20,536 nucleotides of DNA, taken from IMG/VR virus record IMGVR_UViG_3300025617_001456, positions 1-20,536 of that record; one strand, 5' to 3'. The notes beneath the pieces are model-generated. The model had not been told where the DNA came from. It worked only from the letters and a program-made list of their open reading frames with translations, and did no database searches. Source of the stretch: a virus. Below, one piece after another: positions 69 to 17,828 of the stretch. A program made the position numbers and the translations under genes. The first letter of the stretch is position 1. Every line of letters starts with the position of its first letter.

Positions 69-329
69 ATGCTAAACTATATAAAAAAGAAACTTATGAA
101 TTTTTCAAGTATTTTTAAGGACGACAATACTATTAATGAGAAAAACGTTGTCGGCTTCGCCTCCTTTGCTATTATGGCTTTATTTGCTACCGCAGACATT
201 GTAACCGGCTTCTTAGGGAAAGACCTACCGGTGCAGGAGTTCATCTACAACTCTTTCGTAATAATCACTTTAGGTTCCTTCGGAATCGACGGTATTACGA
301 AAATATTTGCTAAAAAAGAAACAGAGTAA
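69..329 (+). CDS. Small two-helix membrane protein next to the endolysin, holin candidate
   Basis: This 86-residue protein has a basic N-terminus (YIKKKL), then two hydrophobic segments at about residues 28-49 and 58-80, and a charged C-terminal tail (KKETE). Its stop overlaps the start of the endolysin gene (TAATG), so the two are translationally coupled. Size, topology and position fit a small holin or pinholin that releases or triggers the lysin. No family signature was recognised, and a second, better holin candidate lies at 1335, so holin is only inferred. There is no Shine-Dalgarno; the ATG is the first in frame after the hairpin and TATATTAAA box. Confidence 0.75.
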   Translation: MLNYIKKKLMNFSSIFKDDNTINEKNVVGFASFAIMALFATADIVTGFLGKDLPVQEFIYNSFVIITLGSFGIDGITKIFAKKETE

Positions 330-1210
330 TGGTATTAAAAGTAGGCTCACGTGGTAAAGCAGTTAAAGAACTCCAAGAATTCCTTGAGATTGGAGCAGAC
401 GGTATCTTCGGTAAAGGTACAGCTACAGCAGTTAAAGCATGGCAACGAATTAACAGCTTGGATGATGATGGTATTGTTGGTCCTGCCACTTGGGACGCTA
501 TGGGTATCGCTACTACTGATAATTCGGAAAAAACTTATACAACGGAAAACGGATTAGTAATTGAAAGACATTTTCTTCCAGTTGGTGAATATAAAACAGG
601 TCCTACAAATAAAGAATATGTTTTCTTACATCACACAGCAGGTTGGCACAGTCCATTTAGAACAATTGATCATTGGGGTAGAGATAATAGAGGTGCGGTA
701 GCAACTGAATTTGTATTAGGCGGTCCGTCTATAAAAGGAAATGATGATAAGTATGACGGTAAAATGGTACAAGCATTCCCTGAAGGAGCTTATGGTTGGC
801 ATTTAGGTAAAAATGGATCCCAACACATGCACACGCATTCAGTAGGTATAGAAGTAAATAATTTCGGTTATCTTAAAGATGGTAAAACATATGCAGGTAC
901 TACAGCCCACGAATCACAAATTGTAGAATTAGATAAAGAATTTAGAGGGTATAAACATTGGCACCGCTACTCAGATGCTCAAATTGAAGCTTTACACAAA
1001 TGGATTTTGTTTATTGCTGAAAGAGATAATATTGATGTTAGAGCCGGTTTACCCGCTTTAATTAAAGAAAAAGGTGCAGATGCCTTTGAATGGAACGAAG
1101 ATGCTTATTACGGAAGAGTAAAAGGTCTTTGGACTCACACAAATACAAGAAAAGATAAAACAGATATGTTCCCACAACAGGAGTTAATGGACATGTTAGT
1201 AAGCCTATAA
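329..1210 (+). CDS. Endolysin: peptidoglycan-binding domain plus N-acetylmuramoyl-L-alanine amidase
   Basis: This 293-residue protein would cut the amide bond between N-acetylmuramate and L-alanine to open the cell wall at lysis. Residues 5-58 form a PG_binding_1-type repeat (GSRGKAVKELQ, DGIFGKGTATAVKAWQ, DGIVGPATWDAMG). Residues 80-280 look like an Amidase_2 zinc enzyme. They contain FLHHTAG with His101/His102, GWHLG at 156-160, SVGIEV at 171-176, and a C-terminal THTNTRKDKTDMFP segment whose His270 and Asp279 are likely the remaining zinc ligand and catalytic region. There is no signal peptide, so it needs a holin. It overlaps the preceding gene by one base (TAATG) and the next small ORF in the same way. 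A wall-binding domain at the N-terminus is the usual order for exolysins of Gram-negative hosts. Confidence 0.93.
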   Translation: MVLKVGSRGKAVKELQEFLEIGADGIFGKGTATAVKAWQRINSLDDDGIVGPATWDAMGIATTDNSEKTYTTENGLVIERHFLPVGEYKTGPTNKEYVFLHHTAGWHSPFRTIDHWGRDNRGAVATEFVLGGPSIKGNDDKYDGKMVQAFPEGAYGWHLGKNGSQHMHTHSVGIEVNNFGYLKDGKTYAGTTAHESQIVELDKEFRGYKHWHRYSDAQIEALHKWILFIAERDNIDVRAGLPALIKEKGADAFEWNEDAYYGRVKGLWTHTNTRKDKTDMFPQQELMDMLVSL

Positions 1211-1329
1211 TGGAAATTAGAGAATTAGAAGATATATTTAGAACACAGGAACTTAAAGCTCTTTCATTTTGGAAAAGAGTCTGGATTAGAATTAAGGTTG
1301 CTTTTATTTATACAATAACTATTTTTTAA
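1210..1329 (+). CDS. 39-residue membrane-type small protein
   Basis: This ORF starts on the last base of the endolysin stop codon (TAATG) and ends 5 nt before the holin-like gene, so it exactly fills the gap. Its product starts MEIRELEDIFRTQELK, followed by a basic aromatic stretch (FWKRVWIRIK) and a hydrophobic end (VAFIYTITIF), so a single membrane-associated helix is likely. Overlapping start/stop codons and the fill of an otherwise empty gap support real coding. It is below the usual annotation length, and no homologue is recognised. It may be an accessory lysis protein such as an antiholin or a spanin-like piece, but that is inference from position only. Confidence 0.55.
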   Translation: MEIRELEDIFRTQELKALSFWKRVWIRIKVAFIYTITIF

Positions 1330-1334
1330 AAAAG

Positions 1335-1772
1335 ATGATTAAATCAACCTATATGAAATTAATACTAGCTAGCACAGCAACAGTAGGGTTTTTCTGCTCC
1401 TACTTCTTACAGTTAACAATGGATAATGCTGAACAGTTCTTAGCTGTAGCTGCTGTATTATTACTGGATGCATTTTTTGGAATAATAGCCGGTATAAAGA
1501 GAGAAGGTTTTAAAACTTATAAGGCCCTTAAGGTACTAAAGTCTATTTTTGCTTGGGAAGTTATACTTACTGCTATTTTAATGATTGAAAAAGGATTTAC
1601 CGGCACAGGCTGGTTAAGCGAAACAGTCATAACTCCATTTATAATATTCCAGATGATCTCAGCACTTAAAAATGCTTCAATGTCTGGATTTATTAAAAAC
1701 GAGCTGTTAAACATTATTTTAGATAAAATCGATAAACATAAAGGCGAAAGAGATGAAAAAATTACTAAATAG
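1335..1772 (+). CDS. Holin-like protein, phage holin family 4 type
   Basis: This 145-residue protein has hydrophobic segments at about 9-27, 36-54, 70-84 and 96-112, and a charged C-terminal tail. The stretch LLLDAFFGIIAGIKREGF, followed by KTYKALKVLKSI, resembles the phage_holin_4 (toxin-secretion/phage-lysis holin) family, in which an Asp-x-x-x-Gly-Ile segment is followed by a basic linker. Such holins make the membrane lesion that frees the endolysin. The gene lies two ORFs after the lysin, and its end overlaps the next membrane gene by 20 nt. The family call is from memory of the motif. The small protein at 69 could be the primary holin, with this one an accessory. Confidence 0.7.
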   Translation: MIKSTYMKLILASTATVGFFCSYFLQLTMDNAEQFLAVAAVLLLDAFFGIIAGIKREGFKTYKALKVLKSIFAWEVILTAILMIEKGFTGTGWLSETVITPFIIFQMISALKNASMSGFIKNELLNIILDKIDKHKGERDEKITK

Positions 1773-1953
1773 CATTACCGATACACGAATGGTGTATCTC
1801 CTAATGTCAATTATACTCTTAACTAGCTACTTCTTGCAATCTTGGGGAGTTGTTATTTTTGTAACATTTATGTTAAACGTTGGTGTATGGACAGGTTTTT
1901 GTCCCTCCAAATGGTTCTTCGGTAAATGCGGATTTAGAAAAGCAGACCTATAA
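1753..1953 (+). CDS. Small two-helix membrane protein, DUF2892/YgaP-TM-like
   Basis: This 66-residue protein has two hydrophobic segments at about 13-29 and 32-46, then a short Cys-containing tail (GFCPSKWFFGKCGFRK). The helix-helix-GxCP layout is reminiscent of the transmembrane part of YgaP-like proteins (DUF2892), which are small inner-membrane proteins of uncertain role. It overlaps the holin-like gene by 20 nt and ends 2 nt before the histidine kinase start, so it belongs to the same translation unit. The two cysteines, Cys50 and Cys59, could bind a metal or form a disulfide. No function can be assigned. Confidence 0.65.
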   Translation: MKKLLNSITDTRMVYLLMSIILLTSYFLQSWGVVIFVTFMLNVGVWTGFCPSKWFFGKCGFRKADL

Positions 1954-1955
1954 TA

Positions 1956-3206
1956 GTGAAAGCATTAAGTGGAATATCACTAAATGCCAAAATATCTCTA
2001 GGCGTTGCAGGAGTCATTATGATGACCTTTTTCGCTGTACAAACATGTATCGTTTTTGGATTATGTGAACCTACTCTATTTTTAGCTAAATTCGGTTGGG
2101 GTTGTGTGGTATTCTTCATGCCACCATTCTTTAAAGTCGTAAGTGAATTCATCAATAATATAAAAATAAGAGAAGAGAGAGTAAACTCTCAACTAGCTGG
2201 AATTAGCCGCTCAAATCTGGTCGTTAGCCTGACAATGGACGGATACATAACTACTGCAAACGATAACTTCTGCAACCTTATGGGCTGTAACGAAGGTGAT
2301 ATGGTTAAAAAACCCCACCATCAAATGGTATCTCCGGAATACGCTAAAAGTAAAGAGTATTTAGAATTTTGGGAAACCCTTAGAAGAGGTGAAAGCATTA
2401 CAGGAGAGTTCGAAAGAATCGCAAAAGACGGTTCTCGAAGATGGTTATTCGGGAATTATACACCCATCAAAGGCGCACAAGGCAGATATGATACAATTTT
2501 AAAGATCGCAACCGATGTTACAGCTCAGCATGAAGCTGAAGATACAGTAAATCAAAAAAACTCCTATCTAGAGCACGCAGCTAAAATACTTAGACATGAC
2601 ATGCATTCAGGTATTAATACTTACATGCCTAGAGGTTTAGGTTCTTTAAAAAGAAGATTAAGTGAAGATCAAATTAAAGAATTGAAAATCCAAGCTCCTC
2701 TTAAAATGCTAGAAGAAGGTTTAAAACATACCCAGAAAGTTTATGCAGGAGTTAAGGAGTTTACAAACCTGGTAAAAGAGAAAGTCCAATTAGATACAGA
2801 AAATTTAAACCTAAAAACTATATTAAAAAACTACCTTAGCTCAACCTCCTATACAAAACAGGTAGTTATTGATGAACTGATAGAATGTGAAGTTAACGAA
2901 CCTCTTTTCTGTACTGCGATAGACAATTTAATACGCAACGGCCTCAAGTATAATGATAGTTCCACTAAGACGGTTATGATTTACATGGAAGGCAAAGACA
3001 CGTTATGCATACAAGATAACGGAAGGGGAATGAGTCAAAAAGAATTTACAGAATTATCCAGACCTTACACTAGAAAAAAAGATCAGAAAGAAAGCGGTTC
3101 TGGGTTAGGTTTAAACATATGTATAGCTATACTAAGAGAGCATAAATTCTCTATAACAGCAGAAAAAACTAACCCTGGAACTAAGATAAAAGTAAGACTA
3201 CAATGA
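1956..3206 (+). CDS. Membrane-bound PAS-domain sensor histidine kinase
   Basis: This 416-residue protein has two transmembrane helices (about 13-37 and 43-62) joined by a very short outside loop, so it has no extracytoplasmic sensor. A cytoplasmic PAS domain spans about 82-190 (TMDGYITTANDNFCNLMG, then KDGSRRWLFGNYTPI and a DVTA exit). A dimerisation region follows with the H-box LRHDMHSGIN, phospho-acceptor His214. The ATP-binding domain has an N-box around Asn324/Asn328 (DNLIRNGLKYND), a G1 box DNGRGM at 354-359 and a G2 box GSGLGLN at 381-387. All boxes needed for autophosphorylation are intact. Its stop overlaps the response regulator start by 4 nt, so the two form a cognate pair. A complete membrane histidine kinase inside a phage lysis operon is uncommon. 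The signal is unknown; PAS could sense a ligand, redox state or the membrane. Confidence 0.93.
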   Translation: MKALSGISLNAKISLGVAGVIMMTFFAVQTCIVFGLCEPTLFLAKFGWGCVVFFMPPFFKVVSEFINNIKIREERVNSQLAGISRSNLVVSLTMDGYITTANDNFCNLMGCNEGDMVKKPHHQMVSPEYAKSKEYLEFWETLRRGESITGEFERIAKDGSRRWLFGNYTPIKGAQGRYDTILKIATDVTAQHEAEDTVNQKNSYLEHAAKILRHDMHSGINTYMPRGLGSLKRRLSEDQIKELKIQAPLKMLEEGLKHTQKVYAGVKEFTNLVKEKVQLDTENLNLKTILKNYLSSTSYTKQVVIDELIECEVNEPLFCTAIDNLIRNGLKYNDSSTKTVMIYMEGKDTLCIQDNGRGMSQKEFTELSRPYTRKKDQKESGSGLGLNICIAILREHKFSITAEKTNPGTKIKVRLQ

Positions 3207-3649
3207 CAACAATGATAAACTCTATCCTTTTAATAGATGATGAAGACCTCTTCCATTTAGTATTCGAAGATGCATGCAGCATTTTAGATATAACGCTATC
3301 TTTAGAAGCACTAAACTCTAGTGACGAAGCCGATAAACTATTCAAAGAATGGTTCCCAGACGATCCTAACCACGAAAAACCAGAATGCGTATTTGTAGAT
3401 CTAAATATTATAGGTTCATCCTTTGACGGAATTGAAATGATCAGAAAGATTAACTATGATTACGGAAATGGCTGCGTAGTCGGGATAATATCATCCTCAG
3501 ATGATACGCAAGAAATTGAAAAAGCAAAAGCAGCAGGTGCACAGTTCTGGATTATTAAATCAGATGATATTGAACCTCGTCTTGAAGAATTTAGAGAAGA
3601 CTACCAGGGGTATAGGGATAAAACAAACCCTTTTAAAATTTATAAATAA
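3203..3649 (+). CDS. Single-domain response regulator (receiver only)
   Basis: This 148-residue protein is a CheY-like receiver. Acidic residues Asp12/Asp13 lie in LLIDDEDLFH, the phospho-acceptor is Asp66 in VFVDLNI, the switch Ser is at 97-98 in GIISSSDD, and the conserved Lys119 is in WIIKSDD. The AAGAQFWIIK stretch matches the usual beta5 region. There is no DNA-binding or enzymatic output domain, so output must be by protein-protein contact or a phosphorelay to another, perhaps host, protein. The start overlaps the kinase stop (ATGA arrangement), so the kinase is the likely phosphodonor. LIDDE-x-x-FH receivers of this kind are common as stand-alone regulators in Bacteroidetes, which suggests capture from a host. 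Confidence 0.9.
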   Translation: MTTMINSILLIDDEDLFHLVFEDACSILDITLSLEALNSSDEADKLFKEWFPDDPNHEKPECVFVDLNIIGSSFDGIEMIRKINYDYGNGCVVGIISSSDDTQEIEKAKAAGAQFWIIKSDDIEPRLEEFREDYQGYRDKTNPFKIYK

Positions 3650-4138
3650 ATGTTAAAAAAACTAGGACATATTTTAACTTACCACGACTCCGAACCTACT
3701 GAAGTACTTCAAGGTTTGATATGGTTAATATTCGCACCACTTGTCCTAGAAGCAACATTTTTTCCAAACCTATGGTATGTCGCACTTATTTCCATACTAA
3801 CCGGATCCTTAACCCTGTACTCGGTAATATATAAAAGCTTAACTATAAGGAAATACGTTGCCTATGTATATGGACTTCTATCTTTAACATTCGTAATACT
3901 ATTTTTTAGAGATAACGGACTCTATTCAAACCCCATGAACTGGGGCTGGGTAGTTATTTCTATAAGTGCAATTAGCAATATTAGAAGAATACAGCGGAAA
4001 ATCCAAGCTCAACAAAAAAGCACAGTACAGGGGGATATAAGTAAGATGTATAGAGAAGACTTAGAGCAAAAAATTCAAACACAAGAAAAAGAAATCTTTG
4101 ATTTAAGACTCGAGAATATTAAATTAAAAGAAAAGTAG
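3650..4138 (+). CDS. Four-helix membrane protein with C-terminal coiled coil, unknown function
   Basis: This 162-residue protein has four hydrophobic segments at about 20-37, 41-60, 67-86 and 95-112. They are followed by a charged helix (about 112-162) with heptad-like spacing (EDLEQKIQTQEKEIFDLRLE) that should form a cytoplasmic coiled coil. The start codon directly follows the response regulator stop. This is tight coupling and suggests that the protein works with the kinase/regulator pair or with lysis. No family is recognised. It might be a membrane-anchored scaffold or an effector contacted by the receiver; this is inference from operon position. Confidence 0.8.
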   Translation: MLKKLGHILTYHDSEPTEVLQGLIWLIFAPLVLEATFFPNLWYVALISILTGSLTLYSVIYKSLTIRKYVAYVYGLLSLTFVILFFRDNGLYSNPMNWGWVVISISAISNIRRIQRKIQAQQKSTVQGDISKMYREDLEQKIQTQEKEIFDLRLENIKLKEK

Positions 4139-4149
4139 AAGATACACAA

Positions 4150-4740
4150 ATGAAAGTTACTGAGGAAGTTAAAAAAATGTTATTAACTTTTGCTAAAGAG
4201 AAAAAAATATATTTAGAAGGTAATATATTAAAAATACTTACAGCGGAAGAAAAAGATAAAGAGTTTGCAGAATACTTAGAAACATGTAAAGTAAAAGACT
4301 CATCTGCCCGTAAGAAAAGATTACAGGTGACTAAACAGGTTCAAAAACAAAATAAAGAACTAGTCGCTAAAGAGAAACAAAATGATACTTTAATGCAAGA
4401 CCTTAAAGTAGCATTAGAGGAAGCAAAACGGTCTGAAGAGGAAGCTCAAACATTAAGAGAAGAAGCAGAACAGGGCAAAGAGCAAGCATTAGAAGATCTA
4501 GAGCTAATGCAGAAAAAAACACAGTTTGAACTGGTAGGCACTATCGTCCGTATAGCATTAGCAGTAATAGTAGGAGTAGGTATCATAACCAGTATAATGT
4601 ACGGGCTTGCGATTGTATCGAACTACGATACACAAATTATCGGATCAACTTGGTCGAACATGTTCGGTATACTCCTCACTAATGCTTTTTCGATTGTCGG
4701 AACAATAATGGGCGTGAAGTACGCTACAGAAAAAGAATAA
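4150..4740 (+). CDS. Coiled-coil protein with two C-terminal membrane helices, unknown function
   Basis: The 196 residues divide into a charged N-terminal part (1-55), a long coiled coil (about 58-125, rich in Glu, Lys and Gln) and two hydrophobic segments at about 129-156 and 168-188 joined by a short loop (YDTQIIGSTWSN). The tail GVKYATEKE is charged. It would sit in the inner membrane with the coiled coil in the cytoplasm. It is the last gene of the lysis/signalling string, and the next promoter lies directly behind it. Roles in superinfection exclusion, a spanin-like function or virion assembly at the membrane are possible but unsupported. Confidence 0.8.
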   Translation: MKVTEEVKKMLLTFAKEKKIYLEGNILKILTAEEKDKEFAEYLETCKVKDSSARKKRLQVTKQVQKQNKELVAKEKQNDTLMQDLKVALEEAKRSEEEAQTLREEAEQGKEQALEDLELMQKKTQFELVGTIVRIALAVIVGVGIITSIMYGLAIVSNYDTQIIGSTWSNMFGILLTNAFSIVGTIMGVKYATEKE

Positions 4741-4746
4741 AAAAAG

Positions 4747-4777
4747 TTGCTTACTTACTAACTTCTATTTATATTTA
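4747..4777 (+). promoter_or_regulatory. Promoter, TTG-N20-TATATTTA
   Basis: TTG (4747-4749, in AAGTTGC) and TATATTTA (4770-4777) are separated by 20 nt, just before the ATG at 4781. This matches the window-wide consensus and the Bacteroidetes -33/-7 layout. With a start site about 7 nt after the box, the transcript would begin almost at the ATG, giving a leaderless or nearly leaderless mRNA. Confidence 0.65.
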
Positions 4778-4780
4778 ACT

Positions 4781-5839
4781 ATGTTGGAAAAATTAAAGCA
4801 AAGATTATTCCCAGTACTAATAGCATTATCAGCACTATCTGTTTCAGCTTCTGCTGCCTTCTATTCAGTGAGTGGATTATCCAAACTTTTTGCAGGAGCA
4901 GCATTTGCAGTAATAATCATGGCAGCTTCTCTGGAGGTAGCTAAACTTGTAATAGCTTCTCTACTATATCAGTATAGAAAAAACCTACCACGTTTATTAA
5001 AGTACTACTTATCAATAGCTTGCTTAGTACTAATACTAATAACATCAATGGGGATTTATGGATTCTTAAGTGCTGCATACCAAGAAACAGCTTCTAAAGC
5101 AGGTACTATCGATTCTAAGATAGTATTGATAGAGACGAAAAGAGATAACGTTAAAGAACAGTTAGCAGGTTATGATAGCGAAAAAGAAACAATTAATAAA
5201 GCAGTAGCAGACCTAAGAGAAGGATTATCTAATAATAAAATTCAATACACAAACGCCGAAGGTCAATTAATAACAACCACCTCCTCTTCAACTAGGAGAG
5301 CATTAGAGAAGCAGTTAGACCAAGCAATCGGAAGACAGGAAACTATCAACCTTAGAGTAGATGAACTAAACGAAAAGCTGTTTGATTATGAGACTGAAAT
5401 AGTAGAGGTTTCTACTAATAGCGAACTAGCTGGAGAATTAGGTCCGTTAAAATACCTTTCTGGACTTACAGGTACTCCGATGGACAAGATCATAAACATA
5501 CTCCTTTTAACTATCATATTCGTATTCGACCCTTTAGCTATCGCTCTCGTAATAGCAGCTAACTTCGCATTCGAACAACTACGGTCGGAAACTAAAAGGA
5601 ATATTTACGGAGAAGAAGTAGAAGTTAAAGTAGAAGAGTTTGATGAAGATCATGCATTAGATTTAGTAATGAATGATATGGTTGAAGATTTAACTGAAGA
5701 GGGTTTAGAAGTAGAAGAAGTAGAAGAGGTAGAAGAAAAACCTAAAGAAGAAAATATAGCTACAACATATAAAGACCCGTCACAACTTTCTAGCTATAGA
5801 AGGAGAAAGATAGAAGAAGAGGGTAAAAAATACTGGTAA
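4781..5839 (+). CDS. Large membrane/coiled-coil protein of marine-phage type, unknown function
   Basis: This 352-residue protein has hydrophobic segments at about 10-29, 35-63, 77-99 and 236-263. A long helical region lies between the third and fourth (about 103-210) and is predicted to be coiled coil. A strongly acidic tail contains repeated Glu-Val/Glu-Glu units (EVEEVEEVEE) and ends in SSYRRRKIEEEGKKYW. Proteins with this order (AASLEVAK, ITSMGIYGFLSAAY, IFVFDPLAIALVIAAN) occur in cyanophages and other marine myoviruses, as I recall, but without a known function. It has its own promoter. A role at the host membrane, such as receptor or secretion interference, is possible. It does not look like a tape measure or tail protein. 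Confidence 0.85.
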   Translation: MLEKLKQRLFPVLIALSALSVSASAAFYSVSGLSKLFAGAAFAVIIMAASLEVAKLVIASLLYQYRKNLPRLLKYYLSIACLVLILITSMGIYGFLSAAYQETASKAGTIDSKIVLIETKRDNVKEQLAGYDSEKETINKAVADLREGLSNNKIQYTNAEGQLITTTSSSTRRALEKQLDQAIGRQETINLRVDELNEKLFDYETEIVEVSTNSELAGELGPLKYLSGLTGTPMDKIINILLLTIIFVFDPLAIALVIAANFAFEQLRSETKRNIYGEEVEVKVEEFDEDHALDLVMNDMVEDLTEEGLEVEEVEEVEEKPKEENIATTYKDPSQLSSYRRRKIEEEGKKYW

Positions 5840-5897: not shown

Positions 5898-6821
5898 ATG
5901 AACGATCAAACTAAGAATCAAGAAAAAGTAGTTGAAATTGCAGGACACCACTTAGGAAAAGTCGGTGGAGCTGGATACAGCGATCAGTACAATCCAGACC
6001 TACTAGTAGCTATTCCCCGAAAGTATAACAGAGAAGCTTACGAAATTGAAGAAGGTAATTTACCGTTTGTAGGAAGTGATGTATGGAATTGCTATGAAGT
6101 ATCCGCTATCACAAGTAAAGGAAGACCTGTAGCAGGTATGATGAAAATCATATGTCCTTCAGACTCCCCACTTCACGTAGAATCTAAATCTATTAAACTA
6201 TATTTAAATTCATTTAACATGACGAAAATGGGAGATACAGAGAAGGAATGTATAGCCCTAATGGAACAAACAGTCGAGAAGGACTTAAGCGTTAGATTAA
6301 AAACTGATGTTAAAGCTAAGCTATTTACAGATACTAATGCTCCTGAATTTAATATGGACAAACAAGGCTTCATACGGCTTGATGCTCTAGTAGATTTAGA
6401 CACAGTTGAATTTAACGTATTTAAATCAGATGCAAGTCAACTAAAAAGAACGGACGATGTAGTTACTGATGAAGTAATTAAAGTAAGTTCTGATCTATTA
6501 AGATCTAACTGCAGGGTAACCAATCAACCCGACTGGGGAGATGTTTATATTCACATGGAAGGGGTAAGTTCTCTAGACTACGAATCTATTGCAAGGTATA
6601 TTGTATCTCATAGACAAGTATCTCATTTTCATGAAGAGATTGTAGAGATGGTCTTCACTCATCTAACTCAAGCTTATAAACCCAATAAGTTAATGGTAGC
6701 AGCTCTATATACAAGAAGAGGAGGATTAGATATTAATCCAATCAGAGCTACTCATCAAGATATGATACCAGAAGCATTTATTAGCACCGAGTATATCAAC
6801 CGTAAGACCTTGAGACAGTAA
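5898..6821 (+). CDS. queF: NADPH-dependent 7-cyano-7-deazaguanine reductase QueF (two-domain type)
   Basis: QueF reduces the nitrile of preQ0 to the amine of preQ1 with two NADPH. This 307-residue protein has the long, E. coli-like bimodular size rather than the short Bacillus form. It shows the QueF substrate motif ESKSIKLYLNS (95-105), the catalytic cysteine in SNCRVTNQPDWG (Cys205, with Asp212), FHEEIVE (244-250) and RRGGLDINP (273-281). All the key residues are present. It has its own promoter and no Shine-Dalgarno. It is the first gene of a cluster that also encodes QueC, QueD and QueE, so the phage can convert precursors all the way to preQ1. In phages this implies preQ1-type DNA modification or supply to tRNA queuosine. 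Confidence 0.95.
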   Translation: MNDQTKNQEKVVEIAGHHLGKVGGAGYSDQYNPDLLVAIPRKYNREAYEIEEGNLPFVGSDVWNCYEVSAITSKGRPVAGMMKIICPSDSPLHVESKSIKLYLNSFNMTKMGDTEKECIALMEQTVEKDLSVRLKTDVKAKLFTDTNAPEFNMDKQGFIRLDALVDLDTVEFNVFKSDASQLKRTDDVVTDEVIKVSSDLLRSNCRVTNQPDWGDVYIHMEGVSSLDYESIARYIVSHRQVSHFHEEIVEMVFTHLTQAYKPNKLMVAALYTRRGGLDINPIRATHQDMIPEAFISTEYINRKTLRQ

Positions 6822-6830
6822 GACAAAGAG

Positions 6831-6861
6831 TTGTTTGGTAAAAAAATAATTCGTATATTTA
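6831..6861 (+). promoter_or_regulatory. Promoter, TTG-N20-TATATTTA
   Basis: TTG at 6831-6833 and TATATTTA at 6854-6861 are 20 nt apart. The box ends 3 nt before the ATG at 6865, so a leaderless transcript is predicted. Confidence 0.6.
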
Positions 6862-6864
6862 GGT

Positions 6865-7149
6865 ATGTCGAAAGAAAAAAAGAAATATAAATCTTATTAC
6901 GTACCGAAAAACTCTGAACCTAGAAGTGTTTACGAATTAGAGATGATAGACGATGAGGGTATTATAAGTATATGGAAATTCGATAAAAAGAAAAATCCCA
7001 ACGGACCATATCAAACGATAAATAAATACCCTCCAGGCTATGATTTTTACCCTAACGCTAAGATACCTAAGACCAAGAAAAAATATTTAAATCCAAAAAC
7101 CGGTAAAGAAGTGAGCTATGCAAGAGCAAAGACCTTAGGACTGGTATAA
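6865..7149 (+). CDS. Lys/Tyr-rich small protein, unknown function
   Basis: This 94-residue soluble protein is strongly basic and rich in Lys and Tyr. It has a Pro/Gly-rich middle (PNGPYQTINKYPPGYDFYPN) and a C-terminal KYLNPKTGKEVSYARAKTLG segment. No transmembrane helix or known domain is visible. The basic character would suit nucleic-acid binding, but no motif supports it. It has its own promoter and starts a run of four small genes (to 8212) between queF and queC. Confidence 0.7.
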   Translation: MSKEKKKYKSYYVPKNSEPRSVYELEMIDDEGIISIWKFDKKKNPNGPYQTINKYPPGYDFYPNAKIPKTKKKYLNPKTGKEVSYARAKTLGLV

Positions 7150-7163
7150 ACAAACAGTAACAT

Positions 7164-7604
7164 ATGTTTCAAACAGTATTAATCTACACAGTAATCCTTA
7201 ATTTAACAATAGCTATTTTAGGGCTATACCTGTACAAAGCTAAGCAGAAGATAAGAAGTATCGAAGAAGCTTTTAACTTGGAGAGAACCAAGATTAGAAA
7301 AGATGCAAAGTTTAGATCCTCAGCAGTTAATTGGGGAAAGACAATAGAACACTTCGTACCTTTTATGGAAAAATTCCCAGTACCTCCAGAAGATGTAGTT
7401 TTCCTAGGAATGCCTATAGATTACGTAGGATTCAGCAACACAACAAGTAAGACTAAATGCGAAGTACATTTCGTAGAAGTTAAATCTGGAAGCTCATTCT
7501 TGATGGGTAAGCAAAAGAATATCAAAAAAGCTATACAAGAAGGTAGAGTTTATTGGCATGAAATAGCAGTAGAAGGGAATACACCTAAAAAACCTAAAAA
7601 TTAG
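7164..7604 (+). CDS. Membrane-anchored Holliday-junction-resolvase-related endonuclease
   Basis: This 146-residue protein has one N-terminal hydrophobic helix (about 4-24) and a short coiled linker. The domain after it resembles the predicted Holliday junction resolvase-related endonuclease family (Endonuc_Holl, PD-(D/E)XK fold). Matching pieces are WGKTIEHFVPF (Glu62), FLGMPIDYVGF (Asp86), VHFVEVKSGSSFL (Glu105-x-Lys107), then the Gln116-centred GKQKNIKKAI and RVYWHEI. The E...D...ExK set is the likely metal-binding nuclease centre. In this family the N-terminal helix would hold the nuclease at the inner face of the membrane. Likely roles are DNA repair, junction processing or host DNA attack; which one cannot be told. 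It is followed at 1-nt spacing by the next small gene. Confidence 0.8.
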   Translation: MFQTVLIYTVILNLTIAILGLYLYKAKQKIRSIEEAFNLERTKIRKDAKFRSSAVNWGKTIEHFVPFMEKFPVPPEDVVFLGMPIDYVGFSNTTSKTKCEVHFVEVKSGSSFLMGKQKNIKKAIQEGRVYWHEIAVEGNTPKKPKN

Positions 7605-7605
7605 A

Positions 7606-7821
7606 ATGGGATTAAGAAAACAGTCTATTAGAAGAATTAACGAAGTAACTGTAGAAGGAAAGCCCACTACTAAAGAAGAGCTTATAGAATTAAGTTTAGA
7701 TTGGGCAGAAAAAGAACTTATATTATTTAAAAAAGTACTAGCCCAAGGAGGAAGCTGTAAGATTCAAAATAGGACTTACAGAGTTAGTAAAGCAGAACCT
7801 ATTAGAATGGTAACAAAATAA
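7606..7821 (+). CDS. Small hypothetical protein
   Basis: This 71-residue protein is charged and mostly helical at the centre (TKEELIELSLDWAEKELILFKKVLAQ), with a basic N-terminus (MGLRKQSIRRI) and a beta-like end (CKIQNRTYRVSK). There is no recognised domain. It starts one base after the stop of the Holliday-junction-type nuclease and is followed by another small gene 10 nt later, so it is co-transcribed. A partner role for the nuclease is possible, but nothing in its sequence shows it. Confidence 0.65.
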   Translation: MGLRKQSIRRINEVTVEGKPTTKEELIELSLDWAEKELILFKKVLAQGGSCKIQNRTYRVSKAEPIRMVTK

Positions 7822-7831
7822 ATAATCAAAA

Positions 7832-8212
7832 ATGAAAAGAAAAGCTAAAGCAATCCATGCAGAGTTAAGAAAAGAAAGCAAGTCTTTCGACGGATGGTTA
7901 AAATACGAAGTAACCATAGAGTACCCTAACGGAAAAACAGAACAAGTACCGGCATACGGTAAAGATCTTCAAGATGCCTTATCAAGAGTAGCACACGATA
8001 AGAGGGTACAAAAGTTAGTAAAGACAAAACTACCTACCCTAACCATATTATTTATAGCAATCCTCATAGCATCATCTTTTACAGTGGTAGGATTCAATAT
8101 CGATAGATTAGGAGATAGTGCCGGACCCGTAATCATAGCAACAGTAGTTATACTAGCTACACTCACGTTAAGTATTGCAAACTGGTTTAATCTTAGAAGT
8201 AGAGAAAAATAA
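7832..8212 (+). CDS. Small protein with two C-terminal membrane helices, unknown function
   Basis: The 126 residues comprise a soluble N-terminal part (about 1-65, with a strand-rich segment LKYEVTIEYPNG) and two hydrophobic helices at about 67-88 and 97-118, ending in basic residues (LRSREK). The soluble part would face the cytoplasm. No family is recognised. It is the last gene before the queC leader. Confidence 0.65.
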   Translation: MKRKAKAIHAELRKESKSFDGWLKYEVTIEYPNGKTEQVPAYGKDLQDALSRVAHDKRVQKLVKTKLPTLTILFIAILIASSFTVVGFNIDRLGDSAGPVIIATVVILATLTLSIANWFNLRSREK

Positions 8213-8213
8213 G

Positions 8214-8245
8214 TAGGTATCTCTTAAGATATTTACTATATTAAG
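8214..8245 (+). promoter_or_regulatory. Promoter for queC, degenerate -33 and TATATTAAG
   Basis: TATATTAAG at 8237-8245 has TAG instead of TTG exactly 20 nt upstream, in AAGTAGGTAT, which otherwise resembles AAGTTGGAAT of the 17195 promoter. If used, it gives a leader of about 60 nt before queC, the longest leader in this window. A second TATATTAAA at 8298-8306 has no matching TTG. Confidence 0.45.
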
Positions 8246-8247
8246 TT

Positions 8248-8295
8248 ATGATAAAAAGGATTAGCCTATATCCTATCAATACCTGGCAAATTTAA
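8248..8295 (+). promoter_or_regulatory. queC leader: possible preQ1-I-like pseudoknot, also a 15-codon uORF
   Basis: The leader can form a small H-type pseudoknot. Stem 1 is AGGAT (8257-8261) with ATCCT (8270-8274). Its loop UAGCCUAU can pair UAG (8262-8264) with CUG (8283-8285, one G-U pair) after an 8-nt A-rich tail. A cytosine (8265) follows directly, as the preQ1-contacting C does after UAG in the Bacillus preQ1-I aptamer. Stem 1 competes in part with the UAG pairing register and is short, so this is only a candidate. The same bases also encode a 15-codon ORF (8248-8295, MIKRISLYPINTWQI). Either would be apt before a preQ0-synthesis gene. Confidence 0.3.
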
Positions 8296-8310
8296 GTTAT
8301 ATTAAAAAAC

Positions 8311-9129
8311 ATGCAATTAGAATTAGATTTTAAAGAAAAGAAACACGCAGTAGTATCTCTTTCAGGAGGTATGGATTCAAGCACCTTACTACTTCGATGT
8401 TTAAAAGAGTATGATACCGTAACAGGTATCTCATTTGACTACGGCCAAAAGCACAGAGTAGAGCTTGAAAGAGCTCAATCACTAGTTAATTACCTTAACG
8501 AAAACAGACACAAGGTAAACTACAGACAAATCCAACTAAACGGTTTAGTTGATTTATTAGATTCAGCTTTAGTAGAAGGTGGTGATGAAGTTCCAGAAGG
8601 ACATTATGAGCAAGATAATATGAAAGCAACAGTTGTACCTAATAGAAATAAAATCTTTGCTTCTATTACTCAAGCAGTTGCTTTATCGGTAGCAAATAAA
8701 ACAGGAGAAAGAACAGATATTGCTTTAGGAATTCACGCAGGTGATCATGCAATTTATCCTGATTGTAGACAAGAATTTAGAGATGCGGATGATGCTGCCT
8801 TTAGAGAAGGTAATTGGGATGCAGATAAAGTAGGATACTTCACTCCATATTTAGAAGGTGATAAATTTACTATCTTACAAGATGGAGAAGTACTGTGTGA
8901 GGAGTTGGGAATTAACTTTGATGAAGTTTACAAAAGAACAAATACTTCATATAAACCTTACCCATCCGGCAATTCAGATTACAAATCAGCCTCTTCAGTA
9001 GAACGTATCGAAGCATTTATAGCATTAGGGAGACCCGATCCAGTTCAATACGAAGACGAAACTGGTCCTGTAGCTTACGGAGTAGCTGAAGCAGCAGTTA
9101 AGAAATTATTAGCAGAACATTCTACATAA
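8311..9129 (+). CDS. queC: 7-cyano-7-deazaguanine synthase QueC (zinc cysteines absent)
   Basis: QueC makes preQ0 from 7-carboxy-7-deazaguanine, ammonia and ATP. The 272-residue protein has the ATP-pyrophosphatase P-loop SLSGGMDSSTLL (17-26 core), SFDYGQKHRVELERA (41-55), VVPNRNKIFAS (108-118) and ALGIHAGDHAIYPDCR (138-153), all characteristic of QueC. The C-terminal end keeps SVERIEAFIALGRPDPVQY, the usual R-x-x-AF-x-x-x-G-x-x-DP-x-x-Y frame. The four cysteines that normally bind zinc just before it (SCY, CGxC, xxC) are missing: the matching positions are Asp223, Ser226 and Ser229, and only Cys30, Cys152 and Cys196 exist in the protein. It therefore belongs to a divergent, zinc-less branch or has an altered activity. 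A strong terminator follows the stop codon. Confidence 0.9.
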   Translation: MQLELDFKEKKHAVVSLSGGMDSSTLLLRCLKEYDTVTGISFDYGQKHRVELERAQSLVNYLNENRHKVNYRQIQLNGLVDLLDSALVEGGDEVPEGHYEQDNMKATVVPNRNKIFASITQAVALSVANKTGERTDIALGIHAGDHAIYPDCRQEFRDADDAAFREGNWDADKVGYFTPYLEGDKFTILQDGEVLCEELGINFDEVYKRTNTSYKPYPSGNSDYKSASSVERIEAFIALGRPDPVQYEDETGPVAYGVAEAAVKKLLAEHST

Positions 9130-9153
9130 CGTAAAACTAAAAATAATAGAAAG

Positions 9154-9179
9154 AGCTCTTGCAATGTAAGGGCTTTTTT
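9154..9179 (+). terminator. Rho-independent terminator after queC
   Basis: AGCTCTTG pairs with TAAGGGCT-type bases (stem of 8-10 pairs with two G-U pairs, small loop around CAATG), followed by six T. The 5' arm also contains the TTG (9159-9161) of the next promoter. Confidence 0.85.
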
Positions 9180-9190
9180 CATATATTAAA
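9159..9190 (+). promoter_or_regulatory. Promoter overlapping the queC terminator, TTG-N20-TATATTAAA
   Basis: TTG at 9159-9161 lies inside the terminator stem, and TATATTAAA at 9182-9190 follows at exactly 20 nt. The box begins 3 nt after the T run. It would drive the genes from 9209 through queD. Confidence 0.7.
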
Positions 9191-9208
9191 GGTATAAAAT
9201 TAAAAGAT

Positions 9209-9562
9209 ATGTCAGACGGAATAACAGAAGCAAGAAGAGGTAGTTACTTCAGCGATAAGAACAAGAACGTAAGTACTACCGGGAAGGCAAAGCATAGCAA
9301 GTACTATTATGATACCGGTAGAAACAAACCATATAAAGACTTTCAATCTACCGGTACAGAATTTAAAAGTACATGGGTAGAAAAATTAAATGAAAAAGGA
9401 GATTTAGATTATATGCCGAATCAAAAATGGCATCAAATCATAAGCTTCATTAAGTCCGGAATAAGAATTATAGGGTATGTTTTTTTACCATTTGATTTGG
9501 TAATTGCAACCGGAGTTCTTATATTAAGTGAAGTAATCGGAATAGTTGAAGAATTAGTTTAA
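9209..9562 (+). CDS. Small protein with a C-terminal membrane segment, unknown function
   Basis: The 117 residues start with a polar, Lys/Ser/Tyr-rich, probably disordered part (1-70, e.g. RRGSYFSDKNKNVSTTGKAK). A hydrophobic segment follows at about 84-108 (RIIGYVFLPFDLVIATGVLI) and an acidic end (EVIGIVEELV). No domain is recognised. It begins a transcription unit that continues into thioredoxin and queD. The ATG is the first after the promoter. Confidence 0.65.
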   Translation: MSDGITEARRGSYFSDKNKNVSTTGKAKHSKYYYDTGRNKPYKDFQSTGTEFKSTWVEKLNEKGDLDYMPNQKWHQIISFIKSGIRIIGYVFLPFDLVIATGVLILSEVIGIVEELV

Positions 9563-9571
9563 ATAAATAAT

Positions 9572-9823
9572 ATGAATAAATTAGTATACATAAGTGCAAC
9601 CTGGTGCGGACCTTGTAAGACATTCGGACCAACCATGGAGAAAGTAGCCGGAACCGGGATACCGGTACAGAAAGTAGATGCAGATCAAGATCAACAAGCG
9701 TTGGCTGACTACCAAGTAAGAAGCGTACCAGCAGTAATAAAGGTAGATTCAGCTGGTAGGATGATCGATAAGTTTATAGGCGTTAAATCTATAGAGGATG
9801 TAATAAGCTTTTACAATGGGTAA
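9572..9823 (+). CDS. Mini-thioredoxin
   Basis: The 83-residue thioredoxin-fold protein has the active site WCGPCK (Cys12, Cys15) and the cis-proline in VRSVPAVI (Pro53), but is shorter than the usual 105-110 residues. The missing part is the N-terminal strand/helix, since the CGPC lies only 12 residues from the start. It is a cytoplasmic dithiol reductant. The end overlaps queD by 8 nt. Possible clients are a ribonucleotide reductase (not in this window) or QueF, whose Bacillus homologue is known to form a protective disulfide. Functional assignment as thioredoxin/glutaredoxin-like is secure; the partner is inferred. Confidence 0.92.
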   Translation: MNKLVYISATWCGPCKTFGPTMEKVAGTGIPVQKVDADQDQQALADYQVRSVPAVIKVDSAGRMIDKFIGVKSIEDVISFYNG

Positions 9824-10283
9824 GTTTCAATCAACAAAAGTCTTTGATGGATTTAGTACAGTATTCCGTCAATGGAAAGCAGAAACTACGCACTGTAGGT
9901 TTGTACATGGATACGGAGTAAGCTTTAAGTTAACTTTCGAAGGTGAGCTAGACGATAGAAACTGGGTATGGGATTTCGGCGGAATGAAAAGAGCTAAAAC
10001 CCTTATCGACGGTATGCAACCTAAGGCCTGGATGGACTATATGTTTGATCATACTTTTATAGTAGCAGAAGACGACCCTTTTAAAGAATCCTTCTTACAG
10101 ATGGATAAAGCAGGAGTGGCGCAAGTAAGAGTAATACCCGCTACGGGAGCTGAAAAATTTGCAGAGTATATTTATAATAAGTTGAATACTTTTGTAGATA
10201 AAGAAACCCAAGGAAGAGTTAAAATAACATCAGTAGAGTTTATGGAACACGGCAAAAATACTGCACTCTATATTGCAGACTAG
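9816..10283 (+). CDS. queD: 6-carboxytetrahydropterin synthase family protein QueD (variant zinc site)
   Basis: QueD turns dihydroneopterin triphosphate into 6-carboxy-tetrahydropterin. The 155-residue protein has THCRFVHGYG (25-34), where Cys27 aligns with the catalytic Cys of the C-x-x-x-HGH motif. It also has RNWVWDFGGMKR (48-59), the FDHTFIV region (78-83) for LDH, the GAEKFAEYIY helix (111-120) and the VEFMEHGKNTALY region (140-152) with the conserved Glu. The usual HGH is HGY here, and the upstream zinc His (A-A-H) is FRQW. This FRQW/THCRFxHGY pattern is, from memory, typical of a QueD-like subfamily seen in phages and some bacteria, so the change is probably subfamily-wide. It overlaps the thioredoxin gene by 8 nt. 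Confidence 0.88.
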   Translation: MGKFQSTKVFDGFSTVFRQWKAETTHCRFVHGYGVSFKLTFEGELDDRNWVWDFGGMKRAKTLIDGMQPKAWMDYMFDHTFIVAEDDPFKESFLQMDKAGVAQVRVIPATGAEKFAEYIYNKLNTFVDKETQGRVKITSVEFMEHGKNTALYIAD

Positions 10284-10286
10284 GAA

Positions 10287-10439
10287 ATGGAAGAAGAGGA
10301 TACTTGGGAAATGCATGAACCTAAAGATGGATTCTCTAAACAGGATGAAAAAGACCTGTTTAAAATGTTAAAAAATATGCCAATAGAGGGAATAAAGAGT
10401 TATGGAAATAAAGATAAAAGTTCTAGAACTAGCAGATAG
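10287..10439 (+). CDS. Small acidic ORF between queD and the next gene
   Basis: An ATG 3 nt after the queD stop opens a 50-codon ORF (starts MEEEDTWEMHEPKDGFSKQD) that fills the 118-nt gap and runs 38 nt into the next gene. The first 37 residues have ordinary phage composition (acidic, with a short helix KDLFKMLKNM). The last 13, in the overlap, are a basic, Ser-rich tail (NKDKSSRTSR) that looks less natural. Either this is a small real protein or its true end reflects an overlap tolerated by a short gene. No homologue is recognised. Confidence 0.4.
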   Translation: MEEEDTWEMHEPKDGFSKQDEKDLFKMLKNMPIEGIKSYGNKDKSSRTSR

Positions 10440-10665
10440 CATACGCTATCTATACCTAACCAAACAACTATCTAATTTCAGGATTAATCATCAAACCTCC
10501 TGTCTTACTGCAGATAAAAAGATGGAGATGTTAGACGGAATGAAACATCACCAAGTGGCTGTCTACGATTTTAGTAGCATTATGAAACTAGATAGTATAG
10601 ACTCTCCCTATGAAGTGGTAGACAACACTGCAGAAATACTTATAAAATTTAAAGTTGGGAATTAA
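10402..10665 (+). CDS. Small hypothetical protein
   Basis: This 87-residue protein has a strand-like N-terminus (MEIKIKVLELADSIRYLY), a polar middle with His-His (MKHHQVAVYDF) and a strand-like C-terminus (AEILIKFKVGN). No domain is recognised. It lies directly before the queE promoter, and the -33 TTG of that promoter falls in its final codons. Confidence 0.65.
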   Translation: MEIKIKVLELADSIRYLYLTKQLSNFRINHQTSCLTADKKMEMLDGMKHHQVAVYDFSSIMKLDSIDSPYEVVDNTAEILIKFKVGN

Positions 10666-10686
10666 TTTAAAACACACTATATTTAA
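10655..10686 (+). promoter_or_regulatory. Promoter for queE, TTG-N20-TATATTTAA
   Basis: TTG at 10655-10657 (in AAAGTTGGG, inside the end of the preceding gene) and TATATTTAA at 10678-10686 are 20 nt apart. The leader to the ATG at 10704 is about 12 nt and contains AAGGAAATG, one of the few purine-rich ribosome-binding-like stretches in the window. Confidence 0.7.
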
Positions 10687-10703
10687 GATAATATATAAAG
10701 GAA

Positions 10704-11537
10704 ATGGCATTAAAGAGAATACAAGACTATGATAAAGTACTCCCAGTACTCGAACTATACACAGCGGTTCAATCAGAAGGATCGAGACAAGGATACCCTA
10801 CTGTAGTTATTAGAACTACGGGATGTACCCATAGGTGCTACTTTGGAGAAGGCGGCTGGTGTGATAGCTGGCAGACAAGTATACACCCGGAAAAAGGAGG
10901 TTATACCTTTAATAACATAATCGAAATGTACGATAAGCATCCACATATTAAAGAAATGATGCTAACCGGAGGGTCTCCTACTATGCATCCTGCTGTGGTA
11001 AATGAGCTTACAAACTTTGCTAAAGATAGAGGTATAGTTATTACCATGGAAACTGAAGGGTCCCATCACCTAGAAACTGACTACCCTCTAGATTTACTTT
11101 CACTAAGTCCTAAGTTTAGTAATAGTGTACCTGTAGTAGGAGTTTTGACTCCACAAGGAAAAGAGGTGGATGAGAAAATGATTAAAACTCATAATAGATT
11201 AAGAATGAACGTTGATGCAATCTCCCAATCAATCAACTACCACAAAGAGTTTCACCTAAAACCAGTTATCGATAAAGATCTATCTATGCTTGCAGAAGTA
11301 GAGCAGTTTATTGAAAACCTAACTGACGCTTTATTTGAAATGAAGTTTAGAGGTTATGAAACAAAGGATGAAGTATTTAAACACGTAAAAGATAGAGTAT
11401 GGTGTATGCCAGCAGGTGACGATAGAGAACCACTATTTGAATCTTATCCGGTAGTAATGAATATGTGTAGAGATAAAGGATACAAATTTACAGGTAGAGC
11501 ACACATTATAGCATTCTCAAAACAAAGATACGTCTAA
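10704..11537 (+). CDS. queE: 7-carboxy-7-deazaguanine synthase QueE (radical SAM)
   Basis: QueE converts 6-carboxytetrahydropterin to 7-carboxy-7-deazaguanine with S-adenosylmethionine and a [4Fe-4S] cluster. The 277-residue protein begins with VLELYTAVQSEGSRQGYP, which matches the QueE substrate region (F-x-S-I-Q-G-E-G). The cluster cysteines are Cys41, Cys45 and Cys53 in GCTHRCYFGEGGWCDSW, a CX3CX7C spacing instead of the usual CX3CX2C. Further motifs are MLTGGSPTMHP (86-96), METEGSHHL (115-123) for SAM and substrate binding, and LSLSPKFSNS (132-141). An inserted Fe-S loop of this type is, from memory, seen in marine phage QueE proteins, so it is probably functional. Its stop is followed 1 nt later by the next gene. 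Confidence 0.93.
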   Translation: MALKRIQDYDKVLPVLELYTAVQSEGSRQGYPTVVIRTTGCTHRCYFGEGGWCDSWQTSIHPEKGGYTFNNIIEMYDKHPHIKEMMLTGGSPTMHPAVVNELTNFAKDRGIVITMETEGSHHLETDYPLDLLSLSPKFSNSVPVVGVLTPQGKEVDEKMIKTHNRLRMNVDAISQSINYHKEFHLKPVIDKDLSMLAEVEQFIENLTDALFEMKFRGYETKDEVFKHVKDRVWCMPAGDDREPLFESYPVVMNMCRDKGYKFTGRAHIIAFSKQRYV

Positions 11538-17244: not shown

Positions 17245-17532
17245 ATGACTAAACAAGAATTAGAAAGTAAAGCAAATTACATCGAAGATCCTATTCTATA
17301 CCCCTACCGTATAAAAATGGATCAATGGCAGTACTGCTTAGAAAAACATTTAAGCAGCAGAAAGGATGGAAATCTTAGATGGGCTGCTCAAGGATATCAC
17401 AATACGATTGACATGTGTTTAATTAAAATGATAGATGACGCAGTAAAAGAAAAAAACTATACAAGCTTAAAAGAGTATACAGAAACTTTATTAGAAAAAA
17501 TAAAAACTTTAAATAATTTTAAATTAAAATGA
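17245..17532 (+). CDS. Small helical protein before groES, unknown function
   Basis: This 95-residue soluble protein is predicted to be mainly helical, with aromatic and charged residues (YRIKMDQWQYCLEKHL, RWAAQGYHNTIDMCLIKMIDD) and a Lys/Leu-rich C-terminus. No domain is known to me. It is the first gene behind the chaperonin promoter, and its stop overlaps the groES start by 4 nt (ATGA), so it is co-translated with groES. Confidence 0.7.
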   Translation: MTKQELESKANYIEDPILYPYRIKMDQWQYCLEKHLSSRKDGNLRWAAQGYHNTIDMCLIKMIDDAVKEKNYTSLKEYTETLLEKIKTLNNFKLK

Positions 17533-17825
17533 AACTAAAAGCAGTTTACAACGCAGTGATCGTAAAGCCGGTAGAGCTTGACGAAGAGTACCACGGAAAT
17601 ATTATAGTTCCGGATTTAGGAAGTGAAAAGAATAAGATGGGAGAAATTATAAGTGTAGGGCCTGGGCATAACATGCCAGGTGTTGGATTTATAGAAACTA
17701 TCTTTAAGGTAGGAGATAAAGTAGTACTTCCTACTATGGGATTTACCAAGTTTGAATTTAAGGGTGAAGACTACTTTATAGGACCGGAGAATCAAATATT
17801 AGCATTATTAGAAACAGAAGACTAA
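17529..17825 (+). CDS. groES: Co-chaperonin GroES-like protein
   Basis: This 98-residue protein matches GroES in length and order: N-terminal strand KAVYNAVIVKPVEL, the mobile-loop region EEYHGNIIVPDLGS (19-32), MGEIISVGPG (37-46), FKVGDKVVLPTMGFTKFEF (59-77) and a C-terminal strand (GPENQILALLE). GroES caps the GroEL ring and drives encapsulation. The mobile loop keeps the hydrophobic Ile-Ile-Val triplet that binds GroEL. It lies 3 nt before groEL, so the pair matches the bacterial operon order. Unlike T4 gp31, a phage co-chaperonin that uses host GroEL, this one comes with its own GroEL. Confidence 0.93.
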   Translation: MKLKAVYNAVIVKPVELDEEYHGNIIVPDLGSEKNKMGEIISVGPGHNMPGVGFIETIFKVGDKVVLPTMGFTKFEFKGEDYFIGPENQILALLETED

Positions 17826-17828
17826 AAT

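Follow-up and report, generated by a model that had tools for sequence, protein, structure and literature searches.

Three described systems come close to the locus reported here. The nearest functional parallel is lysis inhibition in phage T4, which involves the holin T and the antiholins RI and RIII and in which the cue is sensed directly by a periplasmic antiholin (PMC11413866, PMC8385771, PMC6832632). In both cases, as we propose for our locus, membrane-associated proteins allow the phage to match the time of lysis to a cue. However, T4 lysis inhibition involves no phosphorelay, whereas a kinase-regulator relay without a periplasmic sensor is proposed here, and scans of the operon proteins against Pfam and PHROG returned none of the names RI, RIII or T. 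Phage phiCDHM1 carries AgrD, AgrB and the AgrC kinase, with an endolysin gene near the agr genes (PMC3901668). It shares with our locus a phage-encoded histidine kinase, but this kinase is of another type, no regulator accompanies it, and the peptide quorum sensing is thought to address a host regulator. AgrC of phiCDHM1, without a regulator (PMC3901668), was the only phage histidine kinase found in a comparable context, and no phage kinase/regulator pair was found in a lysis operon, in a literature coverage from which subscription papers, preprints and many journals were largely absent. Finally, the single-domain receiver regulator DivK acts on the DivL/CckA kinase (PMC9430884, PMC5361649). 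The DivJ/PleC-DivK-DivL/CckA system of Caulobacter resembles our locus in its histidine kinase, its receiver-only regulator and, as proposed here, its effect by protein contact; it differs in that the phage module has a coiled-coil transmembrane (TM) hairpin protein in the place of the second kinase.

The lysis operon and its transcription signals

The window, i.e., the whole stretch of DNA analyzed, comprises 20,536 nt and corresponds to a 20.5-kb virus record (IMGVR_UViG_3300025617_001456). A preliminary description based on the letters of this DNA had reported a two-component pair in a gap-free gene string with an endolysin and two holin candidates. The string, at positions 69 to 4740, is indeed gap-free provided that a 39-aa open reading frame (ORF) is counted. 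The features of this region are, in order:

8-30, + strand: strong terminator-like hairpin (9-pair stem, then a T-rich tail), which would close the upstream transcription unit
33-41, + strand: CTATTTATA motif just upstream of the gene at 69, candidate lysis-operon promoter
69-329, + strand: g1, 86-aa two-TM protein, holin candidate, overlapping the endolysin start
329-1210, + strand: amidase endolysin with PG_binding_1 and Amidase_2 domains (Pfam E values of 6e-13 and 2.5e-7)
1210-1329, + strand: 39-aa ORF bridging endolysin and holin, candidate gene from its translation
1335-1772, + strand: Phage_holin_4_1-like holin
1753-1953, + strand: g4, 66-aa membrane protein, often encoded immediately before the kinase
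1956-3206, + strand: sensor histidine kinase, 416 aa, GTG start (Pfam, alignment), with an N-terminal TM pair (~10-67), a PAS domain (~85-195), a DHp domain with H214 and a catalytic domain (315-415)
3203-3649, + strand: receiver-only response regulator, 148 aa, phospho-acceptor D66 (Pfam, alignment)
3650-4138, + strand: g7, 162-aa multi-TM and coiled-coil protein, optional insertion between regulator and g8
4150-4740, + strand: g8, obligate third component and proposed membrane effector of the regulator, with an N-terminal mini-domain (~1-70), a long helix (37-156) and a C-terminal TM hairpin (~126-192)
4765-4773, + strand: second CTATTTATA motif just upstream of the gene at 4781, where the following transcription unit may begin
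4781-5839, + strand: g9, 352-aa membrane protein with an orthologue in phage immuto, at the distal border of the insertion site

Both holin candidates deserve less confidence than the preliminary description implied. The protein at 1335-1772 scored 21.2 bits against a Pfam cut-off of 22.2, with its immuto orthologue passing at 28.2 bits, and g1 matched no Pfam family. The orthologue of g1 in immuto precedes a chitinase-type lysin.

The CTATTTATA motif is rare, with two plus-strand copies in the window (33 and 4765), and both are kept upstream of g1 and g9 in the close relatives L001, L002, L003 and L130. These copies probably mark two transcription starts and are thus candidate promoters. Read on the opposite strand, the core of CTATTTATA equals the T4-type late promoter core TATAAATA. 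Sigma-70-like sites showed no excess (15 observed versus 18.2 in shuffled sequences).

Conserved catalytic core and exchangeable input

The kinase and regulator genes overlap by 4 nt, as described previously. The kinase matched PAS_3 (E value of 7e-13) and HATPase_c (E value of 2e-13, 51.1 bits), and the regulator matched Response_reg barely above the cut-off (30.4 versus 30.2 bits). No HisKA match was obtained with Pfam for the dimerization domain of the window kinase, and the assignment of its DHp box rests on the alignment, in which H214 lies within RHDMHSGINTY and is invariant in 169 kinases. The H, N, G1 and G2 boxes that had been called intact were all found (H214, N324/N328, D354-N-G-x-G and G381/G383/G385); N324/N328, D354, N355, G356, G358, G383 and G385 are invariant among the 169 kinases, and G381 is present in 166. 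Likewise, D12/D13, D66, S97/S98 and K119 of the regulator are intact and, apart from gaps, invariant in 185 regulators. In comparisons with the two closest relatives, dN/dS ratios were 0.06-0.07 for the kinase, 0.02-0.04 for the regulator and 0.06-0.07 for g8; these low values exclude chance ORFs. The catalytic residues of kinase and regulator are invariant under purifying selection.

The sensor part of the kinase varies among relatives, which have between zero and three PAS domains and between zero and three TM segments; 29 kinases have no recognized PAS domain. Within the module, the input is thus exchangeable and the core is fixed. For the window kinase, the hydropathy scan gave one clear and one marginal TM segment. 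With two plausible TM segments joined by a short loop, the earlier view that this kinase lacks an outside sensor appears justified.

Kinase, regulator and g8 travel as a unit

We retrieved 184 distinct regulators from IMG/VR plus two Bacteroidetes MAGs; the IMG/VR loci are related to one another, so that locus counts are not independent. A kinase lies upstream of the regulator on the same strand in all 164 loci with enough upstream sequence, which corroborates the matched pair proposed for this receiver-only regulator. The gene downstream is just as constant: g8 follows the regulator in 171 of the 172 loci with enough downstream sequence, the sole exception being a bacterial locus, and none of the fetched g8 loci lacked the regulator. 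Consequently, the unit consists of kinase, regulator and g8, which travel together in diverse phages. The preliminary description had recognized the pair correctly and had missed this obligate third gene, filing it merely among membrane and coiled-coil proteins. Other neighbors are facultative. g4 occurs in 56 of the 184 loci, nearly always as the immediate upstream neighbor of the kinase, and g7 lies inside the module in about 20 of the 184. A by-eye suggestion that g4 is DUF2892 was dropped for want of Pfam support. In one locus (L123:11245-12870), a 541-aa gene sits between kinase and regulator.

The distances of kinases and regulators correlate (0.60-0.81), which, together with the fact that the regulator is always encoded with its own kinase, indicates an insulated private pair.

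The statement that phages rarely carry such a pair holds for cultured phages and fails for uncultured ones. The 50,697 records of cultured phages contained no relative of the regulator and no g8, and the kinase drew generic kinase matches with no close relative, whereas scans of IMG/VR yielded at least 544 contigs with relatives. The uncultured carrier phages probably infect Bacteroidota. A scan of ~85,000 bacterial and archaeal species gave three loci in total, namely, a phage-like one (L205, where PhoH is present) and two from Bacteroidetes MAGs, in which the flanking genes are cellular. A search of 395, 390 and 148 Bacteroidota genomes revealed no cellular copies beyond those already known. 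In one Bacteroidetes MAG (L204:6675-9836), an in-frame stop among repeated PAS domains interrupts the kinase, which is perhaps an assembly error; the regulator is intact, and no g8 follows it.

The module gathers near lysis genes

To quantify the association with lysis, endolysins were counted by distance from the module, each gene once and leaving out loci fetched by endolysin search. Per 100 kb, 19.9 endolysin genes lie in the first kilobase from the module, 3.9 in the second and 0.8-2.0 at distances of 2-6 kb, a roughly 10- to 20-fold enrichment of the first kilobase over the 2-6 kb range. Four lysin classes were found beside the module (amidase, GH19, GH24 and M15), up- or downstream and in many arrangements, although the split between amidase and GH19 is approximate, the GH19 profile being derived from a mixed cluster of peptidoglycan-binding lysins. 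Sixty-three lysins were on the same strand as the module and 8 on the opposite strand. Of 89 loci flanked by 4 kb or more in each direction, 42 contained an endolysin within 4 kb and another 9 a holin-type gene (51/89), as detected with profiles that were built from these same loci and are of unequal sensitivity. The remaining 38 showed no recognized lysis gene at this distance and may contain unrecognized lysins. At the level of regulator clusters (85% identity), 9 of 17 had a lysis neighbor; the link is thus neither confined to one lineage nor universal. The association noted in the window is therefore a general one.

Several further contexts were observed. In some T4-like phages (L027, about 7687-8412; L111; L093, 3341-4063), a gene resembling that for the late sigma factor gp55 is found a short distance upstream of the module, a likeness seen by eye and without a Pfam match. 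Some copies lie between structural genes. In addition, a 202-aa family with no Pfam match turns up repeatedly close to the module and to lysis genes (L226:8560-9168 and 20 other loci), and it is possibly an unrecognized endolysin.

These contexts bear on a different reading, in which the module serves host takeover or a stress response at the membrane rather than lysis. It would sense the envelope or energy state, g8 would remodel the membrane or keep out superinfecting phages, and the position near lysis genes would merely reflect late co-expression. The 38 well-flanked loci lacking a recognized lysis gene, the copies adjoining gp55-like sigma or structural genes and the diversity of the sensor region are in keeping with it. 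However, since structural late genes occupy far more of such genomes, the 10- to 20-fold concentration of endolysins within 1 kb, involving four lysin classes in many arrangements, exceeds what late co-expression predicts, and PADLOC models gave no match for the kinase, the regulator, g8, g7 or g4. We thus consider this reading rather unlikely.

An accessory insertion in the lysis locus

The DNA polymerase encoded in the window shares 64% identity with its counterpart in Flavobacterium phage vB_FspM_immuto (MW353175), a cultured phage from the Baltic and the closest cultured phage found by DNA polymerase. Both share the order g1-lysin-holin-...-g9, and on the basis of these two similarities the host of the window phage is probably a flavobacterium. 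In contrast to the window, immuto has no kinase or regulator, and between its holin and g9 it carries a 67-aa two-TM protein, an alanine/glycine-rich protein and two coiled-coil TM proteins in place of kinase, regulator and g8. Reading the sequences of immuto genes 83-85 ruled out that they are divergent versions of the three module genes.

In 21 contigs of cassette-free relatives without kinase or regulator, the gap between holin and g9 is only 6-75 nt. From these clean junctions it follows that the lysis unit presumably works without the module, which would be an accessory insertion. Lysis genes without the pair and random positions of the pair had been named in advance as evidence against a functional link: the former was observed in sister phages, and the latter was not, the positions being non-random with respect to lysis genes. 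The gene arrangements thus characterize the module as an apparently accessory, movable regulator that is dispensable for the endolysin-holin unit.

g8 as the probable output of the regulator

The AlphaFold2 model of g8 (mean pLDDT of 85.9) consists of a small N-terminal part, a ~120-residue helix running into the first TM helix, and a second TM helix. The TM hairpin is strikingly conserved (STWSN-FGILLTN-FSI-GTI-GVK), to a degree that far exceeds the need of a plain anchor. g8 has no family match in Pfam, including the known holin families, and its match to PHROG holin 689 reached an E value of only 0.008, mostly across the coiled-coil region. The best non-g8 matches of the hairpin among 4,132 TM ORFs were two 65- to 67-aa two-TM proteins in immuto and L195, both encoded directly after the holin (E values of 0.0065 and 0.097). 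In the reciprocal search, 86 of the 103 matches of the immuto protein were g8, and none of 30 hydropathy-keeping shuffles reached 13 bits. The match is weak, yet reciprocal and above shuffled controls, and suggests that the g8 hairpin is related to these lysis-locus proteins. A grouping of the g1 and g8 hairpins into one family was rejected, as the profile comparison was not significant (hhalign E value of 0.25) even though the same register was aligned. A fold search retrieved no significant match to solved structures in the PDB and one strong viral match, an unnamed Caudovirales protein with 46% identity that is probably itself a g8. Tree distances of g8 and regulator correlated at 0.36-0.60, no better than those of g8 and holin in the same phages (0.49).

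The best evidence on the role of g8 comes from a Bacteroidetes MAG. Locus L203, flanked by CreD, HTH_34 and HAD, encodes a kinase with three PAS domains, a regulator and a 349-aa protein. The first ~100 residues of the latter match the N-domain of phage g8 (E value of 1.9e-33), and the protein continues as HisKA and HATPase_c instead of a TM hairpin. By its domains, the cellular version would thus be a kinase-regulator-kinase system, and phages have a TM hairpin in the place of the terminal kinase, unless the swap occurred in reverse. Since the g8 N-domain follows the same kinase-regulator pair but carries a different C-terminal part, g8 is probably the output of the regulator, an argument that rests on this single MAG locus. 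The arrangement in L203 follows a logic comparable to that of DivK-DivL/CckA.

The same comparison raises the alternative that kinase and regulator rewire host two-component signaling, by phosphorylating host regulators or titrating host kinases, with g8 as a scaffold or anchor. Receiver-only regulators can act on other kinases, as in DivK-DivL-CckA (PMC9430884, PMC5361649), and L203 has a second kinase at the position of g8. Nevertheless, the constant presence of its own kinase beside the regulator and the correlated distances of the two speak against it, as do the lack of a kinase output in g8 and a hairpin too conserved for a mere anchor, and we judge it improbable. That the module is a captured host cassette without a phage-specific role is already disfavored and hardly credible: it has cellular relatives in Bacteroidetes MAGs and is missing from many sister phages, but it is under strong purifying selection with invariant catalytic residues and occurs in at least 544 viral contigs versus two cellular loci in ~85,000 genomes, with none further in the sampled Bacteroidota.

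Proposed mechanism and implications

Considering the gene unit, its conservation, the domain swap and the association with lysis genes observed here, it appears moderately probable that the locus is a phage-borne three-gene signaling module in which the kinase acts through the phosphorylated regulator on the membrane effector g8 and thereby on holin timing. The phosphotransfer, the contact between regulator and g8, the action on the holin, the cue and the direction of the effect on lysis are steps that we infer. The kinase would read a membrane or cytoplasmic cue, such as the redox or energy state or membrane damage, via its TM segments and PAS domain, would autophosphorylate at H214 and would pass the phosphate to D66 of the regulator. 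The phosphorylated regulator would bind the N-terminal mini-domain of g8, whose ~120-residue helix would carry the resulting change into the conserved TM hairpin. This hairpin may behave as a partner resembling a holin or antiholin and thereby shift the moment of holin triggering. The signaling through protein contact suggested in the preliminary description is thus supported, with g8 as the presumed contact of the regulator. As sister phages possess these lysis genes and lack the module, an accessory modulator is favored, and a brake is slightly more likely than a trigger. As a broader and more tentative possibility, phages may have derived a kinase-regulator-membrane-effector circuit from a bacterial kinase-regulator-kinase relay, with a TM hairpin from the lysis locus taking the place of the terminal kinase. 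The result would be a widespread and mobile phospho-switch with exchangeable sensors, through which host cues determine when lysis occurs.

A phosphorelay would add a new route by which lytic phages beyond the T-even group sense the host and time lysis. The module occurs in hundreds of uncultured aquatic virus contigs and, if the proposed mechanism is true, could shape the timing of Bacteroidota bursts at large scale. Naming g8 as the specific effector and its N-domain as the specific contact of the regulator makes the proposal immediately testable, and the module may represent a natural set of interchangeable sensors that all feed a single fixed output.

Other genes in the window

Downstream of g9, the window encodes QueF, QueC, a QueD-like protein (PTPS) and QueE (5898-11537). 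These genes suggest that phage DNA or tRNA is modified with 7-deazaguanine, in line with the annotation of immuto, where DpdA is also present. GroES and GroEL are encoded in tandem at 17529-19460, and immuto also has both, adjoining its DNA polymerase gene.
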